Below the pieces are notes generated by a model. That model was not told where the DNA came from and did no database searches. It saw only the letters and a program-made list of their open reading frames with translations. Made by a program: the position numbers and the translations under genes. 42,008 nucleotides of DNA from an uncultured bacterium (GTDB taxonomy: Bacteria; Cyanobacteriota; Vampirovibrionia; Gastranaerophilales; Gastranaerophilaceae), in the NCBI GenBank assembly GCA_903868125.1, contig CAIPUE010000021.1, positions 1 through 42,008 of the forward strand. The letters are read 5' to 3'. Each line of letters starts with the position of its first letter. Within the stretch, counting starts at the first letter, position 1. Shown piece after piece: positions 7,693 through 14,936 of the stretch.

Positions 7693-8421
7693 ATGAGCGA
7701 AATCAAAACTATCTTATCAAAAAATAAACAAAAAAGTACCTGCAGTGATGATGCAGAAATTTTACCAATAAAGGTTTTAATTATCGAAGATTTTAAATTG
7801 ACAAGGGTAGGACTAAGATGTGCATTGAATTCGAACAAAGATATAACGGTTATTGCAGAATGTGACAATGCCCTCGCTGGGCTAGAGATGATATCAAAAC
7901 ATAGACCTCATGTGGTCTTAATGGATTTGGGACTACCTGATATGAACGGCATAGAAGCTTCAATTAAGGCAAAAGAAATAATGCCTGAGGTAAAAATTAT
8001 TGCACTTACATCGCATGACAGAGAGGAAGAAGTTATTGCTGCTCTAGCCTCGGGAGCAAATGGCTATTGTCTTAAAGATATTGATCCTGTAAAACTGGCG
8101 GATGTAGTTAGAGATGTTGCAAACGGGGTTTGCTGGATTGATCCGCAAGTGGCACAGATAGCCCTTAATGCTTTCCCTAAGCCTGAAAACACAAATTTAC
8201 TTCCATCTAAATCAGGCGCAATAGGTAGAGTACCATTAACTGAAAGAGAATGCGAAGTCTTGAAGCATTTGGTTATGGGAAAAAGCAATACTGAAATTGC
8301 TAAAGAATTAATAGTAAGCGTCCACACCGCAAAGGCACATGTTTGTTCGATTTTGCAAAAAATGTGCGTAAATGACAGAGTTCAGGCAGCGGTTAAGGCT
8401 GTACGCGAAGGATTGGTTTAA
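7693..8421 (+). CDS. NarL/FixJ-type response regulator
   Basis: The 242-residue protein has a receiver domain at about 27-145 and a LuxR-type helix-turn-helix at about 180-240. The phospho-acceptor is D78 (VVLMDLGLPD), with acidic E32/D33, T106 and K128 (CLKD) in the usual places. The output domain has LTERECEVLKHLVMGKSN and EIAKELIVSVHTAKAHV. A 25-residue polar extension precedes the receiver. CAGGAGAA lies just before the ATG. No histidine kinase is adjacent, so it is an orphan in this window. The target is unknown; inverted repeats upstream suggest possible self-control. A strong terminator follows. Confidence 0.93.
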   Translation: MSEIKTILSKNKQKSTCSDDAEILPIKVLIIEDFKLTRVGLRCALNSNKDITVIAECDNALAGLEMISKHRPHVVLMDLGLPDMNGIEASIKAKEIMPEVKIIALTSHDREEEVIAALASGANGYCLKDIDPVKLADVVRDVANGVCWIDPQVAQIALNAFPKPENTNLLPSKSGAIGRVPLTERECEVLKHLVMGKSNTEIAKELIVSVHTAKAHVCSILQKMCVNDRVQAAVKAVREGLV

Positions 8422-8513: not shown

Positions 8514-8744
8514 GTAACAACTCAGGTAGCTTTTAATTAACCATAAAGTGCGCAAGAAAAAATCTACACTTGTTCAGTGTTTTTGCGTCATTGCGAGACG
8601 TCAAGTGCCGAATGCGACAAAAAGCTTCCACCGAAGCAATCTCCTTGTATTATTGCAAGGAGATTGCTTCTTTCCCTCATTGGTTTTCTGACTAAAAAAT
8701 CTTCGCCAGCAATGACGTAAATGGGGTTATACCTGAGTTGTTAC
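8514..8744. repeat. Nested palindromic, MITE-like element
   Basis: An outer inverted repeat (GTAACAACTCAGGT at 8514-8527 and its complement at 8731-8744) encloses an inner one (GCGTCATTGC at 8585-8594 against GCAATGACG at 8709-8717). This in turn encloses a 15-base hairpin (GAAGCAATCTCCTTG at 8633-8647 with its complement ending at 8670). No ORF is inside. The inner words (CATTGCGAG, GAAGCAATCTC, GCAATGACG) are a common bacterial palindromic-repeat vocabulary in my recollection. A fragment of the same type lies at 36198-36231. It fills most of the 350-base gap between the response regulator and the cellulose-synthase-like gene. Confidence 0.75.
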
Positions 8745-8772: not shown

Positions 8773-10737
8773 TTACGGTTCCCTATGTTCCTCTTCGTCG
8801 TAATACTCATCCCATTTGTCAGGTCTTTTATAAGTAAATTTGACATATTTATCTATCCGCTGAACGTATTTTTTTGTAAGCTCATACAATGTTATCGGCG
8901 TCTTGAATATTGATTTACAAAAAAATTGACCATTTTTCTTATCACAATTAAACAGTTTTACTTTATTATCCGCCCCCTCGATGTCAACACTAAATTCTTG
9001 ATTTAAAGAGTCTCCCACCTCTTCAGAAGTTTGAATATTTAAACCGGAGCGAGAAATATTATTGACATGAGTTTCATATTTATGATAATTGTTATCTTGC
9101 AGTATCAATCCATCGTCAATCTTAATTCTTTGATAAAAACGTTTTTCAGGTTTTTCAGTTACAACTTTCAGCCCGTAGTATAATACAATAATATTTATGG
9201 TATTCCAAAACAGATTTGCAACAATTGCAAGCACGCTATATACATCTGAATAAAAAATGTCATAAAAGCCTTGTAGTTCAGCAGAAATAAGAATTGCAAA
9301 CATGATAATTAAAGGCATTTTATATTTGTAATTTGTTCTGGTTATTGTAAATCCTTTGGCAGTTACATTAAATTTTATTCTTGACAACTTCCCCGGTAAA
9401 AAAAGTGCCTGCAAGATACTTCCTATAGTAAATATGGAGGTTACAAGGTCATAAACATCTGCAAAAATTATATTGCTGATTTTTATTTTTGCCGCATATA
9501 TAAAAGCAAATTTAAGGGTAAAATAACAAATTTGAAATGCAAAAATCTGGTAAAAAAGAACTAATACAGGAGATATATCAAAAAATAGGAATAATACGGG
9601 TGCCACAAGAAAAATAACTCTTGAAATGGGCGTAAAAAAATACAAAACGCCGGATAGGTAGAAAAATGCCTGAACCGGAGTAAGTTTTAGGTAATATTTC
9701 CAATTTTTAGGGTTTGTAACAATTTGGACATTCCCTTTTGCCCATCTGCAACGCTGTTTTATGTATTCTTCAAAACTTGCTGCAGAAAGTCCGATTGCAA
9801 CAGGGCGGTTATAATATACAACCTTATAGCCATAACTATGAAACTCCAAACCGAGTTTGGAATCTTCTGCTATCGTATCTTCAGGGAAATTTCCCACTTC
9901 TTCAAGATATTTTCTTTTTATTAAAATATTTGTTCCGCCGCAAAAAACAGAATCGAATTCACTCAAACTCGGTTCTATTACCCGATAAAACATATCTTGC
10001 TCATTGGCTAAAATTTCGCTTAAATTCAAATTTTTCTGAAATGCATCTGGATTGCAAAAATGTTGCGGAGTCTGAACAAGTGCCACTTTTTCATCCACAA
10101 AATTATAAACCGTTTCTCGCAAAAAAGTTGACGCCGGAGCATGGTCGGCATCAAATATTACAACAATTTCAGAATCTGTTTGAGAAAGTGCATTGTTAAT
10201 ATTTCCCGATTTAAAACCTTTATTTGTATCTCTGGTAATATAATTACAGCCGAACAGGGAGGTTAATTCTTTAATATCTTCCCTTTTTCCGTCGTCAAGC
10301 ACATAAACTTTGTAATTTGGGTAATCAATATTCTTACACGCAGAAATTGTTATAGAAAGCATATCCGCACTCTCATTCAACGTACAAATAAAAATATCTA
10401 CGTTTGGGCAGTAATTCTCAAAAGTTACAAGCTCATCGTTATGAAAGACATCTTTGTAATAGTCTTGTTGAAGTGTATTATCTGGTTTAATTTTTTTTAA
10501 GTGGCTCGCTTTGAGCAAAATTAGTCCGAAATTTGTAAAAACAATCAGCGTAAGAATTTCTGCAATACAAAGAGAATATGACCAAAATGTTGTCAATGGG
10601 GAAGTCAAAACATTCAAAGTGTACACCCATCGCCACATAACATAGGTTATCCCAAGTAGAAAAACCGTCGAAAAAAAGATAAATATAAATGCTGAAAAAT
10701 ATCGTTTATTTTGTGTTGTCACGTTTGTTACATCCAT
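8773..10737 (-). CDS. bcsA: Cellulose synthase-like glycosyltransferase with C-terminal PilZ domain (BcsA-like)
   Basis: The 654-residue inner-membrane enzyme follows the BcsA plan. N-terminal membrane helices (about 13-35 and 52-76) lead into a GT2 domain with LDDG (147-150), DAD (196-198), AED in place of the usual TED (290-292) and QRCRW (Q-x-x-R-W, 328-332). More membrane helices follow (about 355-520). The C-terminal PilZ domain has R533-x-x-x-R537 and N560-x-S-x-x-G565, the residues that bind cyclic di-GMP, so synthesis is probably switched on by that messenger. It is the last gene of the operon, and its start overlaps the GH8 gene by 32 bases. No BcsB gene is present. The product is called beta-glucan/cellulose by homology; a different polymer is possible. 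Confidence 0.9.
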   Translation of the reverse strand: MDVTNVTTQNKRYFSAFIFIFFSTVFLLGITYVMWRWVYTLNVLTSPLTTFWSYSLCIAEILTLIVFTNFGLILLKASHLKKIKPDNTLQQDYYKDVFHNDELVTFENYCPNVDIFICTLNESADMLSITISACKNIDYPNYKVYVLDDGKREDIKELTSLFGCNYITRDTNKGFKSGNINNALSQTDSEIVVIFDADHAPASTFLRETVYNFVDEKVALVQTPQHFCNPDAFQKNLNLSEILANEQDMFYRVIEPSLSEFDSVFCGGTNILIKRKYLEEVGNFPEDTIAEDSKLGLEFHSYGYKVVYYNRPVAIGLSAASFEEYIKQRCRWAKGNVQIVTNPKNWKYYLKLTPVQAFFYLSGVLYFFTPISRVIFLVAPVLFLFFDISPVLVLFYQIFAFQICYFTLKFAFIYAAKIKISNIIFADVYDLVTSIFTIGSILQALFLPGKLSRIKFNVTAKGFTITRTNYKYKMPLIIMFAILISAELQGFYDIFYSDVYSVLAIVANLFWNTINIIVLYYGLKVVTEKPEKRFYQRIKIDDGLILQDNNYHKYETHVNNISRSGLNIQTSEEVGDSLNQEFSVDIEGADNKVKLFNCDKKNGQFFCKSIFKTPITLYELTKKYVQRIDKYVKFTYKRPDKWDEYYDEEEHREP

Positions 10738-11836
10738 TCAAATTTTTACTGTAAAAGTAATACGAAAACCAAGCTAAGTTTTTACCATAATAATCATTTT
10801 TACTAGCCCAATACGTTTCATCTTGAAAATGAGGTTCGATTTTGCTTTTATATATTTCATTCGCGATTTTGGGGTCATAAGCAGCAATTACAGGAATCAA
10901 AACAGACATTGAACCTATCGGCAAATGTTTATCCCTTAAATTTCCGTTAGCCTGATAATTAACATAAAAAGTGTTCGATTTTTTCCATTGCTCCACAAAA
11001 ATTTGTGATTTTTCGAGTACGGGTAATGCTCTACTATCATGTGTTTTACTAAAATCAAGATACACCCTTGCAAACACCCTTATCGCGTCATAAGAAAAAT
11101 CGCTACGCTCGGAATTTTCAAGTACAATTTGTTTATTTTCGATTAAAAACCAATTTGGCGGAAGATGGGTTTTTGTTTTTGCCATAGCTTCGTTTAAATA
11201 AAAATAAGATGACTCAACCAACAAGTTCCAATCATGGAGTTGATCATATTTTTGAAATAATCTAAAAGCATAAGGAGAAAAATAAGAAGGATTAATTTCA
11301 ATTTTTTCATCAGAAACCTGATTAACACCGGGCATTAATACCAGATGATTGTCAATTTGTTTTACTTCATTAGTCCAAATCGAATTAATTATACATACTG
11401 CATCTTCAAAATATTTGTAATTATGCCACTGTTTATGAGCCAAAATCAAAGCAAAAGCAATATCTACATCGGCATCGGAAGCGGAATTATCATCCAAAAT
11501 TTTATATTCCCCGCCTTTATTTTCCCCCCAAAGCCATGCAAATAATCTATCATGTCGTTGTAAATTATTTTTAGTCCATTGATAAACTAAATCAAAAGTT
11601 GGTCTGTCATCCATAATTAACGCCCGAAGCATCATATATGACTGCCCCTCGGAAGTGGTAATATTATTTTTATCTCTATCCATTATTCTTCCATCTTCTG
11701 ACATGAAATTTTGCTTATAAAAATCATAACTGTCTTTCAGGCAAACTCCGTTTTCTTCATTGCCATCAACTTTGAAAGCGAATAAAAAAAATAGAATTAG
11801 GATAATAGAAAGAATTAAAAGCTTAGTTTTTAGCAT
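10706..11836 (-). CDS. bcsZ: Glycoside hydrolase family 8 endoglucanase (BcsZ-like)
   Basis: This is a secreted or periplasmic GH8 enzyme of the type found in bacterial cellulose operons. A hydrophobic signal segment occupies about residues 4-21. The catalytic acid lies in TTSEGQSYMMLRA (E63), and the second conserved acidic block is SASDADVDIAFALILA (D121 region). A WLWGE segment lies near 101 and SYDAIRVFARV further on. The length of 376 is normal. It overlaps the upstream barrel gene by 14 bases and the downstream synthase by 32, implying translational coupling. Its probable job is trimming nascent glucan during export. Together with the synthase it is the main evidence that the polymer is cellulose-like. 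Confidence 0.9.
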   Translation of the reverse strand: MLKTKLLILSIILILFFLFAFKVDGNEENGVCLKDSYDFYKQNFMSEDGRIMDRDKNNITTSEGQSYMMLRALIMDDRPTFDLVYQWTKNNLQRHDRLFAWLWGENKGGEYKILDDNSASDADVDIAFALILAHKQWHNYKYFEDAVCIINSIWTNEVKQIDNHLVLMPGVNQVSDEKIEINPSYFSPYAFRLFQKYDQLHDWNLLVESSYFYLNEAMAKTKTHLPPNWFLIENKQIVLENSERSDFSYDAIRVFARVYLDFSKTHDSRALPVLEKSQIFVEQWKKSNTFYVNYQANGNLRDKHLPIGSMSVLIPVIAAYDPKIANEIYKSKIEPHFQDETYWASKNDYYGKNLAWFSYYFYSKNLNGCNKRDNTK

Positions 11837-14800
11837 GTTTTTTGAACCCCCTTATAACTGCATTAATCATAAACTGGTCACGAACCAAATCGGCATAAGT
11901 AAAATGACTATACAACGCATTAATAGACACATTATCATTAAGGTCATAGCTAACGTATGGGGAAAACCCCCAAGTAGGCGTTGTCTGGTCAGGGCTTATC
12001 GCATTTTGAATACCACCAAAACTCTTTACTCCATATTTCAGGCGCCATTGTTTAATATTTCCTTCAGCCTTTAAATTAAGAGTGGTTGCATTGAAATAAC
12101 TCGGGCTGAAATAACCGCCAAACAATTGTCCGGTATTGCTGTAAATTTTTAGCAGATTATACTGATAAGCCGCGTTATAAGAAATAACGTCAGCAGAAAA
12201 AGTATTTATCCATTTGTTTCGGGGGTTATTATATAAAAGCCTTCCTGCACCGACTAAACCCTCAAAGTATTGGTTGGTATTCAAATTTTGTGCAGTAATC
12301 ACCCCATAAGCTCCGACTGCGTACGCATAAAATTGGTGTGGCAATTTTCTTTGAATATCAACATAAAATTTGTTATCCGCAGCACGCCCCGTAAAAACCC
12401 CATTAACCGGTTGACCCACGGCAGAAAGGTAAGATTGTTCAATATTTATTCTTTTTACCCCGAGTTTCAAATTTAATTTATCGCTAAAATAATGCTTTAT
12501 CCAACTATCTGTAACAAGCATTGCACCGTCGCCGAATTCAAACGCCCTAACACCCAAGTCTGCACGATACTCCCATTTTTCGTTGGGACGTGACTGTATG
12601 CCACCTTTAAATTCGTTCATGACGTTGTTTAACTGCCGTGTACCTCTGGAACTGTAGACTATGACATTGTATTCCATAAATACATTTTTATTATCCTCAA
12701 TATTTTTTGAAACATTTATTCCGAATTTGTGATAATCCAACTTGAACTCATCAGCCAACTGTTGAAAGAAAAATGAATATGTAGGAGTGATTGTAATCGC
12801 CTCATCTCGCCTGATTTTATATTTTAAAGCTTCGGCATCTTTTGTAGCCACACCTTTTAGGGCTTTTTTGGAATCTGACCACATGTGCATATCATAATAA
12901 GCCTGAGCTTTTATCAATTTAGTTTCGTCATCAGGCTCTATTTTGTCGATAACATTCAAGGCAGTCATCTTTTCATCGTTCGCAATAAAAGAATGAGCAA
13001 CCGCCATTTGTGCAGGCTTGTAATTAGGGTTTTCTTTTAACACAGAACCAAAAATTTCTCTCGATTTATCAAAATTCTTTTTATCTATTTCCAAATACCC
13101 TAATCCGACTTTGGCTTGCAAATTTTTAGGGTCGTTTGCCAAAATATTGTTATAAATCTTTGTCGGAGTATTTATATAACCCAACATTCTGTAGGATTCT
13201 GCGAGTTTATTCTGCATAATCAAATCTTGAGGGTCTAAACTAACGGCGTTTCTGTAATTACTCGCCGCAGTGTAATAATCTTTGTCGGTCATAGCAATAT
13301 CGCCCATAACCATATAACCTGCTTTTGTCTTTTCCAGATGATTATTTTTAATCACCCAATAAGCCTGCCTGATTTTTTGTTGTGCCAAAAGAGAATTCAA
13401 ATAAGCCTCTACAACCTCCAAAACATTAGGATTTGCTTCATAAAGGGGCTTAATTATTCTTTCAGCGTTAATAAAATCCTGATTTGCCATATAAAAATTC
13501 GAAAGTGTAAAATAATACTCAGGTTCCGGATAATTCGCAATCAGACTTTCATAAGACTTTATAGCGTTTGGAAAATCCTTGTTAATAGAATATAAATCGC
13601 CCTTGTTTTTCAACAATTCTTCCGAATTCGGTTCAAATTCAAGCAATTTATCCGTATAAACAATCGCCTTATCCCAATTTTTTTGAGCCATGGAATATTC
13701 AATCGCAGGCTTCAATAAATCTTTATCTTTTGGGTTTTTTTGGATTAGATTGTCGATAATTTCTGATGCCTTGGCGTAATTTTCTGTTTTTGAGTATAAA
13801 AATGCAAGAAACTTATCATCTTCTTGCGAGAGCGGATTTATTTTTTGGGTCTTCTCAAGAAACGTTATCGCATCTTTGTAATTGTTTTGAGCAAAAAAAA
13901 TGTCAACTTGATGTCTTAAAAGTTTTATATTTTGAGGTTGACTTTTAAGCATTTTATTTAAATAAGGTTGAGCTTTTGGATAATTTTTAGCATCAAGAGC
14001 TTCGTAAAAAAGCTTTTCCTGTAATTTAAATCCACTAAGCGGCTTTGGAACATATTTTACAGGTTCTTGTGCAGGACCCTGTGTTTTACCATGTAAAACA
14101 GATATATCATAAGCCTTACTCTTTTTGACATGTTCACTTGTATCCCCCAATCCGATTAGGCGATTATAGACTGAAAGGGCTTTATCATAATGCCCGTATT
14201 TTTCATGCAGCCCAGCCAAGCGATATAATATTCCCATATTTTTGGGATTTTGAGCCGATAATTTTTTTATATATTTTTCTTGCAAAGAATAATCATTGTA
14301 TTTTTCGGCTAGGGATAAAATTTTATTGACAGACTCAGAGTCTTTCGGGTAAAGATCTGAAAATCTAATATAATATCCAATGGTATTTCGCCCCCCGCCT
14401 GTTTTTTCGCTCGCAACAATACAGGTTTTAATTGTGTCTTTACCTATTGACACTTTAGGGATTTTGTCACAGGTTTTTTTTACATTTCCCCAATCCTCTT
14501 TGTACGAATAATGATAAATCAACGCCATATTTAATTGATTAAGTTGGGATTGATTAAATTGTTTATTTTCGGTTAAATTGTGCAATTTTTCACTGGATAA
14601 TTTTCCATTTTTTATTGAACTCAAATCTTTTTTAAATAAATACTGTTTATTTTTGGTTAGAATATATAATTTGTCATATAATTTTTCTGCTTTATCGAAA
14701 TACTGTTGGCGTTCACAAAATTTTGCATAAGCTTCAACTACAGTTTTGTCTTTACCATAATAATACATAGCTTTTTCATATAAATGAAAAGCCGAGTCAT

Positions 14801-14936
14801 GATTATTTCTTTTTTCAGCGTTTAGTGCATCTTGCAAAAAATTTTGTTTATAATCTTTTTTTTGAAGAAGAAAGGCTTCTGCGGGACTGTGTATAAAAAA
14901 CAGACAAATTAAAATTAATATAATAACCCTTTGCAT
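11823..14936 (-). CDS. bcsC: TPR-repeat protein with C-terminal outer-membrane barrel (BcsC/PgaA-like exporter)
   Basis: A signal peptide (about 1-21, ending SPAEA) is followed by some 700 residues of tetratricopeptide repeats (for example NYKDAITFLEKTQKINP, DFPNAIKSYESLIANYP, NFDKSREIFGSVLKENP). A C-terminal region from about residue 740 alternates aromatic beta strands (VFMEYNVIVYSSRG, WEYRADLGVRAFEFGDGA, KFYVDIQRKLPHQFYAYAVG) and ends in a strand-like segment. This is the BcsC/PgaA arrangement: a periplasmic TPR superhelix threading polymer to an outer-membrane barrel. It shows that the cell has an outer membrane. First gene of the three-gene operon, no internal promoter seen. The symbol is by architecture; overall similarity to E. 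coli BcsC may be low. Confidence 0.82.
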   Translation of the reverse strand: MQRVIILILICLFFIHSPAEAFLLQKKDYKQNFLQDALNAEKRNNHDSAFHLYEKAMYYYGKDKTVVEAYAKFCERQQYFDKAEKLYDKLYILTKNKQYLFKKDLSSIKNGKLSSEKLHNLTENKQFNQSQLNQLNMALIYHYSYKEDWGNVKKTCDKIPKVSIGKDTIKTCIVASEKTGGGRNTIGYYIRFSDLYPKDSESVNKILSLAEKYNDYSLQEKYIKKLSAQNPKNMGILYRLAGLHEKYGHYDKALSVYNRLIGLGDTSEHVKKSKAYDISVLHGKTQGPAQEPVKYVPKPLSGFKLQEKLFYEALDAKNYPKAQPYLNKMLKSQPQNIKLLRHQVDIFFAQNNYKDAITFLEKTQKINPLSQEDDKFLAFLYSKTENYAKASEIIDNLIQKNPKDKDLLKPAIEYSMAQKNWDKAIVYTDKLLEFEPNSEELLKNKGDLYSINKDFPNAIKSYESLIANYPEPEYYFTLSNFYMANQDFINAERIIKPLYEANPNVLEVVEAYLNSLLAQQKIRQAYWVIKNNHLEKTKAGYMVMGDIAMTDKDYYTAASNYRNAVSLDPQDLIMQNKLAESYRMLGYINTPTKIYNNILANDPKNLQAKVGLGYLEIDKKNFDKSREIFGSVLKENPNYKPAQMAVAHSFIANDEKMTALNVIDKIEPDDETKLIKAQAYYDMHMWSDSKKALKGVATKDAEALKYKIRRDEAITITPTYSFFFQQLADEFKLDYHKFGINVSKNIEDNKNVFMEYNVIVYSSRGTRQLNNVMNEFKGGIQSRPNEKWEYRADLGVRAFEFGDGAMLVTDSWIKHYFSDKLNLKLGVKRINIEQSYLSAVGQPVNGVFTGRAADNKFYVDIQRKLPHQFYAYAVGAYGVITAQNLNTNQYFEGLVGAGRLLYNNPRNKWINTFSADVISYNAAYQYNLLKIYSNTGQLFGGYFSPSYFNATTLNLKAEGNIKQWRLKYGVKSFGGIQNAISPDQTTPTWGFSPYVSYDLNDNVSINALYSHFTYADLVRDQFMINAVIRGFKKHAKN

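Follow-up and report, generated by a model that had tools for sequence, protein, structure and literature searches.

How can a BcsA-type beta-glucan synthase work together with a BcsC-type exporter if the genome encodes no BcsB? This question is raised by a locus from the order Gastranaerophilales, which comprises non-photosynthetic relatives of cyanobacteria. The window, i.e. the whole stretch of 42,008 nucleotides that was analysed, is contig C21 of a genome of this order with a size of 1.89 Mb and a completeness of 99.66%. As described in the earlier note, it contains three overlapping genes for an exporter barrel, a GH8 enzyme and a PilZ-containing synthase; the three ORFs follow each other in this order on the minus strand and overlap by 14 and 32 nt, respectively. 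The features of the locus are:

8633-8670, no strand assigned: inverted repeat GAAGCAATCTCCTTG-loop-CAAGGAGATTGCTTC, read from the sequence, with a 15-bp stem, downstream of the synthase gene and in a single copy in the window
8773-10737, minus strand: BcsA-type beta-glucan synthase of 654 aa with 2+4 membrane helices, a GT2 domain and a C-terminal PilZ-like domain
9127-9141, minus strand: PilZ RxxxR (R533-R537), a c-di-GMP motif, with its partner NISRSG ([D/N]xSxxG) at residues 560-565
9862-9870, minus strand: AED, the catalytic-base motif (residues 290-292), which is TED in most relatives
10706-11836, minus strand: BcsZ-like GH8 endoglucanase of 376 aa (PF01270, E=3e-50) with an N-terminal hydrophobic segment
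11823-14936, minus strand: BcsC-like exporter of 1037 aa with a signal peptide, a periplasmic TPR solenoid and a C-terminal outer-membrane beta-barrel
11826-12794, minus strand: 16-strand beta-barrel of the exporter (~residues 715-1037), placed from the strand positions in the model

Purifying selection acts on each of the three genes: in comparison with the 96%-identical relative L024, dN/dS is ~0.15 for the exporter, ~0.13 for the GH8 protein and ~0.14 for the synthase. The operon contains no genes for BcsD, BcsE, BcsF, BcsG or BcsQ, and a promoter scan gave matches at chance level. The inverted repeat is possibly a terminator or a REP-like element. A gene for a NarL-type response regulator (window 7693-8421) is convergent with the operon, and a homologue is present at the equivalent place in L024.

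The synthase matched TIGR03030 (CelA) with E=1.7e-123 and a score of 413 bits vs a cut-off of 699. The best folds for its AlphaFold2 model (pLDDT 83, pTM 0.85) were the BcsA proteins of E. coli and R. sphaeroides (TM ~0.8). The motifs DDG, DADH, ED, QRCRW and FNVTAK are kept together with the PilZ motifs RxxxR...NxSxxG, i.e. the protein has the GT2 motifs D, D, D and QxxRW of a BcsA as well as the BcsA fold. The earlier note had also pointed to AED in place of TED. This substitution is real but carries no weight: it is a genus-level substitution, other members of the order read TED, AED is also found in one distant member of the class (L163), and the Thr of TED is not fully conserved (PMC6821405). 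AED as the sign of a different mechanism was therefore rejected.

The arginines of the PilZ motif as well as its Ser and Gly are invariant across the order, and the synthase model contains a beta-rich domain at residues 538-611. The Pfam PilZ model did not match the window synthase at E<=1e-3; it matched that of the relative L010. The conserved RxxxR and [D/N]xSxxG motifs together with the modelled beta domain support that the synthase has a PilZ barrel. Because these motifs are conserved and the genome contains seven GGDEF genes, control of the synthase by c-di-GMP is plausible. PilZ motifs do not guarantee binding, since RiGT2, the mixed-linkage glucan synthase of Romboutsia ilealis, has the motifs, yet showed neither c-di-GMP binding nor activation (PMC10374906).

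The exporter matched TPR models in Pfam, and its BCSC_C score of 21.6 bits was just under the cut-off of 23.5. In an AlphaFold2 model of its last 398 aa (pLDDT 80, pTM 0.76), helical TPRs are followed by 16 long strands. The best PDB folds for the barrel model were 9b8a, 6tzk and 9b8h, all of which are BcsC (E 1.6e-13 to 6e-12); lower-ranked folds were PelBC and then 4y25, which is described as a polysaccharide outer membrane secretin. The TPR solenoid and the 16-strand barrel of a BcsC are thus present by fold and, because the sequence profile scores just below its threshold, it is fold and context on which the assignment is based. The GH8 protein scored 204.7 bits against PRK11097 (BcsZ; cut-off 299), and the solved structures nearest to it were GH8 glucanases including the BcsZ-type endoglucanases 3qxf and 3qxq. 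Its E63 and D250 are invariant across the order and correspond to the catalytic Glu55 and Asp243 of BcsZ (PMC11379886), i.e. it is a GH8 protein with both the catalytic Glu and the catalytic Asp. Because GH8 N-termini of the order contain lipobox-like motifs (G006, G002/G009 and G010) or, in the window protein, a long hydrophobic segment, the enzyme could be located at the membrane, next to the exit of the channel. In total, the locus shares with the bcsABZC systems of E. coli and R. sphaeroides a BcsA fold with PilZ motifs, a GH8 BcsZ and a TPR-barrel BcsC, while all three proteins score under the curated equivalog cut-offs.

The canonical bcs operon is built around a BcsA-BcsB core, and BcsA of both R. 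sphaeroides and E. coli needs BcsB for activity (PMC11379886). By contrast, the BcsB model PF03170 had no match in the window or anywhere in the whole genome, and it matched 0 of 192 sampled genomes of the order. In the positive control, the same model detected BcsB in 11 of 25 examined genomes from sister families of the same class, with E-values to 1e-109. Moreover, a broader profile built from seven diverse BcsB proteins had no match at E<=1 in nine cassette-bearing genomes. Because 192 genomes were searched and the positive controls were detected, neither assembly gaps in one genome nor insensitivity in this lineage explain the absence of BcsB. Similarly, we reject that BcsB was missed through divergence, because both profiles were negative here, yet match in a sister family. 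Thus, the absence of BcsB, which the earlier note had described for the operon, extends to the rest of the genome and to the sampled order. Profile searches for CBM_11 and GO-like_E_set gave no match anywhere, with no control matching either, and therefore carry no weight.

In cyanobacterial type IV systems, an HlyD-like protein takes the place of BcsB (PMC12430437), and such a partner had been proposed as an alternative for this locus. No HlyD-like adaptor is encoded in the operon. Five HlyD-type/MFP genes were found in the genome in a search that was keyed on the lipoyl motif and misses adaptors without it, and all five lie beside MFS, RND, ABC or MacAB transporter genes, as assigned by eye from gene order and sequence. 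Because all five belong to efflux loci and none is an orphan, they were rejected as substitutes for BcsB, and a cyanobacterial HlyD-type substitute in this genome is unlikely.

To place the synthase, a tree was rooted at the midpoint; several of its rows have an unusual composition. The synthases of the order form one clade (100/100), which groups (100/99) with BcsB-type BcsA proteins and the long BcsA proteins of sister families, apart from XcsA, BgsA and CrdS. These data bear on the idea that the locus is part of an ordinary cyanobacterial-type Xcs system (type IV; XcsA, HlyD-like XcsB, TolC and the endoglucanase XcsC), with TolC and with an HlyD-like adaptor that is encoded at another site. 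Such a system likewise has a BcsA-like PilZ synthase, an endoglucanase and no BcsB; the partners of the BcsB-less cyanobacterial XcsA are scattered in Thermosynechococcus (PMC12430437), and other families of the class have a synthase that adjoins HlyD. However, the operon encodes a BcsC-type TPR barrel instead of HlyD and TolC, the MFP genes that were found sit in efflux loci, and the window synthase belongs to a clade separate from XcsA. We consider this explanation highly improbable.

The same tree informs the identity of the product. The most likely product is a linear, cellulose-like beta-1,4-glucan, which is favoured by the position in the tree, the GH8 enzyme and the BcsC fold. Because other glucans are the substrates of some GH8 enzymes, the product could differ from cellulose. 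Specifically, the product could be a mixed-linkage or beta-1,3 glucan, in which case the cassette would correspond in function to the BgsA/CrdS/RiGT2 type: RiGT2, a PilZ synthase without BcsB, makes a (1,3;1,4)-glucan (PMC10374906), and the CGGTN motif of the window synthase resembles CCGT, which is found in HlyD-type enzymes, more than it resembles FFCGS. The BgsBA and CrdS systems of Rhizobiales also have a BcsB-less GT2 synthase of similar size; however, these synthases lack PilZ motifs and pair with an HlyD-like protein, as was also the case in the BgsA- and CrdS-type loci that we examined, and by tree, motifs and loci the window synthase does not group with them. RiGT2 resembles the window synthase in having PilZ motifs and no BcsB, but its host is Gram-positive and has no outer-membrane exporter. 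Moreover, the window synthase has DADH and not DADF, it groups with BcsB-type enzymes (100/99), and a GH8 enzyme and a BcsC-type barrel are companions in cellulose operons. A product other than cellulose is, thus, quite unlikely.

An orthologous synthase is present in 8 of the 192 sampled genomes of the order including the window genome; the ninth genome with a match, G163, has a distantly related glycosyltransferase instead. One further genome with the synthase, from the same genus as the window, came from a sample of the whole class. The cassette recurs without BcsB in several families of the order, in genomic surroundings that otherwise differ. Wherever the contig permits a view, the neighbours of the synthase gene are the exporter and GH8 genes, with the exporter gene on the opposite strand in G028. 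Among 20 genomes of the order that were tested, GH8 was found in 9/9 synthase-positive and 0/11 synthase-negative genomes. Across the order, no gene beyond these three stays with the cassette. A secreted-looking protein of 515-537 aa is encoded divergently from the exporter gene in family f2 only (L012:13762-15375 and L013:2434-3981); it was rejected as a stand-in for BcsB because it has only a weak adh_short match and is confined to this family.

Three further observations were made during these searches. In L025 (4430-6364), a synthase orthologue with 73% identity lies alone without GH8 or exporter genes and has QRTRL where all others have QxxRW; it is possibly a decaying or repurposed copy. 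In family f9 of the same class, L150, L152 and L155 encode BcsA proteins of ~950 aa next to BcsC-like TPR barrels, with no BcsB gene adjacent to them; in most f9 genomes searched, two BcsB matches are present at other sites, usually near each other. Finally, G198, G208, G230 and G243 of family f14 encode long PilZ BcsA proteins in genomes without a PF03170 BcsB; these are apparently a second group that lacks BcsB in the BcsA part of the tree.

The conserved gene content also bears on whether the place of BcsB has been taken by an unlinked partner in the inner membrane or periplasm that has no homology to BcsB and is invisible to profiles, comparable to GlxA in Streptomyces or CcsB in Clostridium. 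In CslA-GlxA and CcsA-CcsB, a BcsA-like synthase without a BcsB homologue has another, non-homologous membrane-anchored partner that is present or proposed (PMC11022532, PMC7710045), whereas none was recognised in the window system. For the BcsA-like enzymes that have been characterised in Proteobacteria and Streptomyces, a TM-anchored partner is necessary (PMC11022532), and CcsB has been proposed to act in the same role (PMC7710045). Because the synthases of R. sphaeroides and E. coli, Streptomyces and Clostridium have or need partners, an unrecognised partner is plausible; however, no additional gene accompanies the cassette across the order, and we regard a hidden partner as unlikely.

The synthase itself differs from BcsA of the bcsABZC systems at its N-terminus. 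By a crude hydropathy count, the WR of its conserved WR...T motif is at residue 35 and in the first helix, vs 76-216 with additional helices in front of it in the BcsB-type enzymes of the panel; the first helix in the model begins at residue 16. Because WR lies this early, the synthase lacks these additional helices. RiGT2, presumably also independent of BcsB, likewise has no N-terminal helix of the kind that forms a coil with BcsB (PMC10374906) and, therefore, the truncation fits with the loss of BcsB. This is a correlation, and BgsA-type enzymes have short N-termini as well.

Altogether, we suggest, with a probability of roughly 0.58, that the three-gene operon encodes a c-di-GMP-gated, envelope-spanning beta-glucan synthase-exporter whose TPR solenoid, possibly assisted by GH8, has replaced BcsB in its docking function. 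In E. coli, TPR#1 of BcsC docks on the terminal BcsB (PMC11379886), i.e. the apical domain of BcsB holds BcsC while its TM anchor stabilises BcsA, and the TM anchor alone has been reported to be sufficient for a functional complex (PMC11022532). In the proposed mechanism, both roles would pass to the TPR solenoid, perhaps together with GH8. BcsA would polymerise UDP-glucose and pass the chain across the membrane via a channel of its own, with c-di-GMP on the PilZ domain opening the active site; the chain would be passed straight to the TPR solenoid of the exporter and exit via the 16-strand barrel, while a membrane-anchored GH8 would trim stray or stalled chains. Here, we infer the product, the direct contact between the TPR solenoid and BcsA, and the control by c-di-GMP; direct docking would be the simplest arrangement because BcsB is gone. 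More tentatively, and short of even odds, the synthase may work without any dedicated periplasmic co-polymerase, with the TPR solenoid docking on the shortened BcsA in a two-protein conduit and GH8 as the sole accessory protein.

BcsB-less BcsA-type enzymes are already known, i.e. cyanobacterial XcsA, BgsA, CrdS and RiGT2. We found no description of the operon in Gastranaerophilales in the literature, of which few subscription papers were covered, and as far as we found, a system without BcsB and HlyD but with a BcsC-type exporter is a previously undescribed combination. The suggestion in the earlier note of a minimal or distinct beta-glucan system, or one with another guide protein, is supported in a cautious form by the absence of BcsB and the conservation of the cassette across families. 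According to current descriptions, proteobacterial BcsA depends on BcsB, which in E. coli also forms the bridge to BcsC. A conserved natural operon with counterparts of BcsA, BcsZ and BcsC but no BcsB offers a direct test of the purpose of BcsB, and the loss of the leading BcsA helices alongside BcsB gives a concrete structural prediction; the three genes may represent a minimal kit for cellulose secretion.
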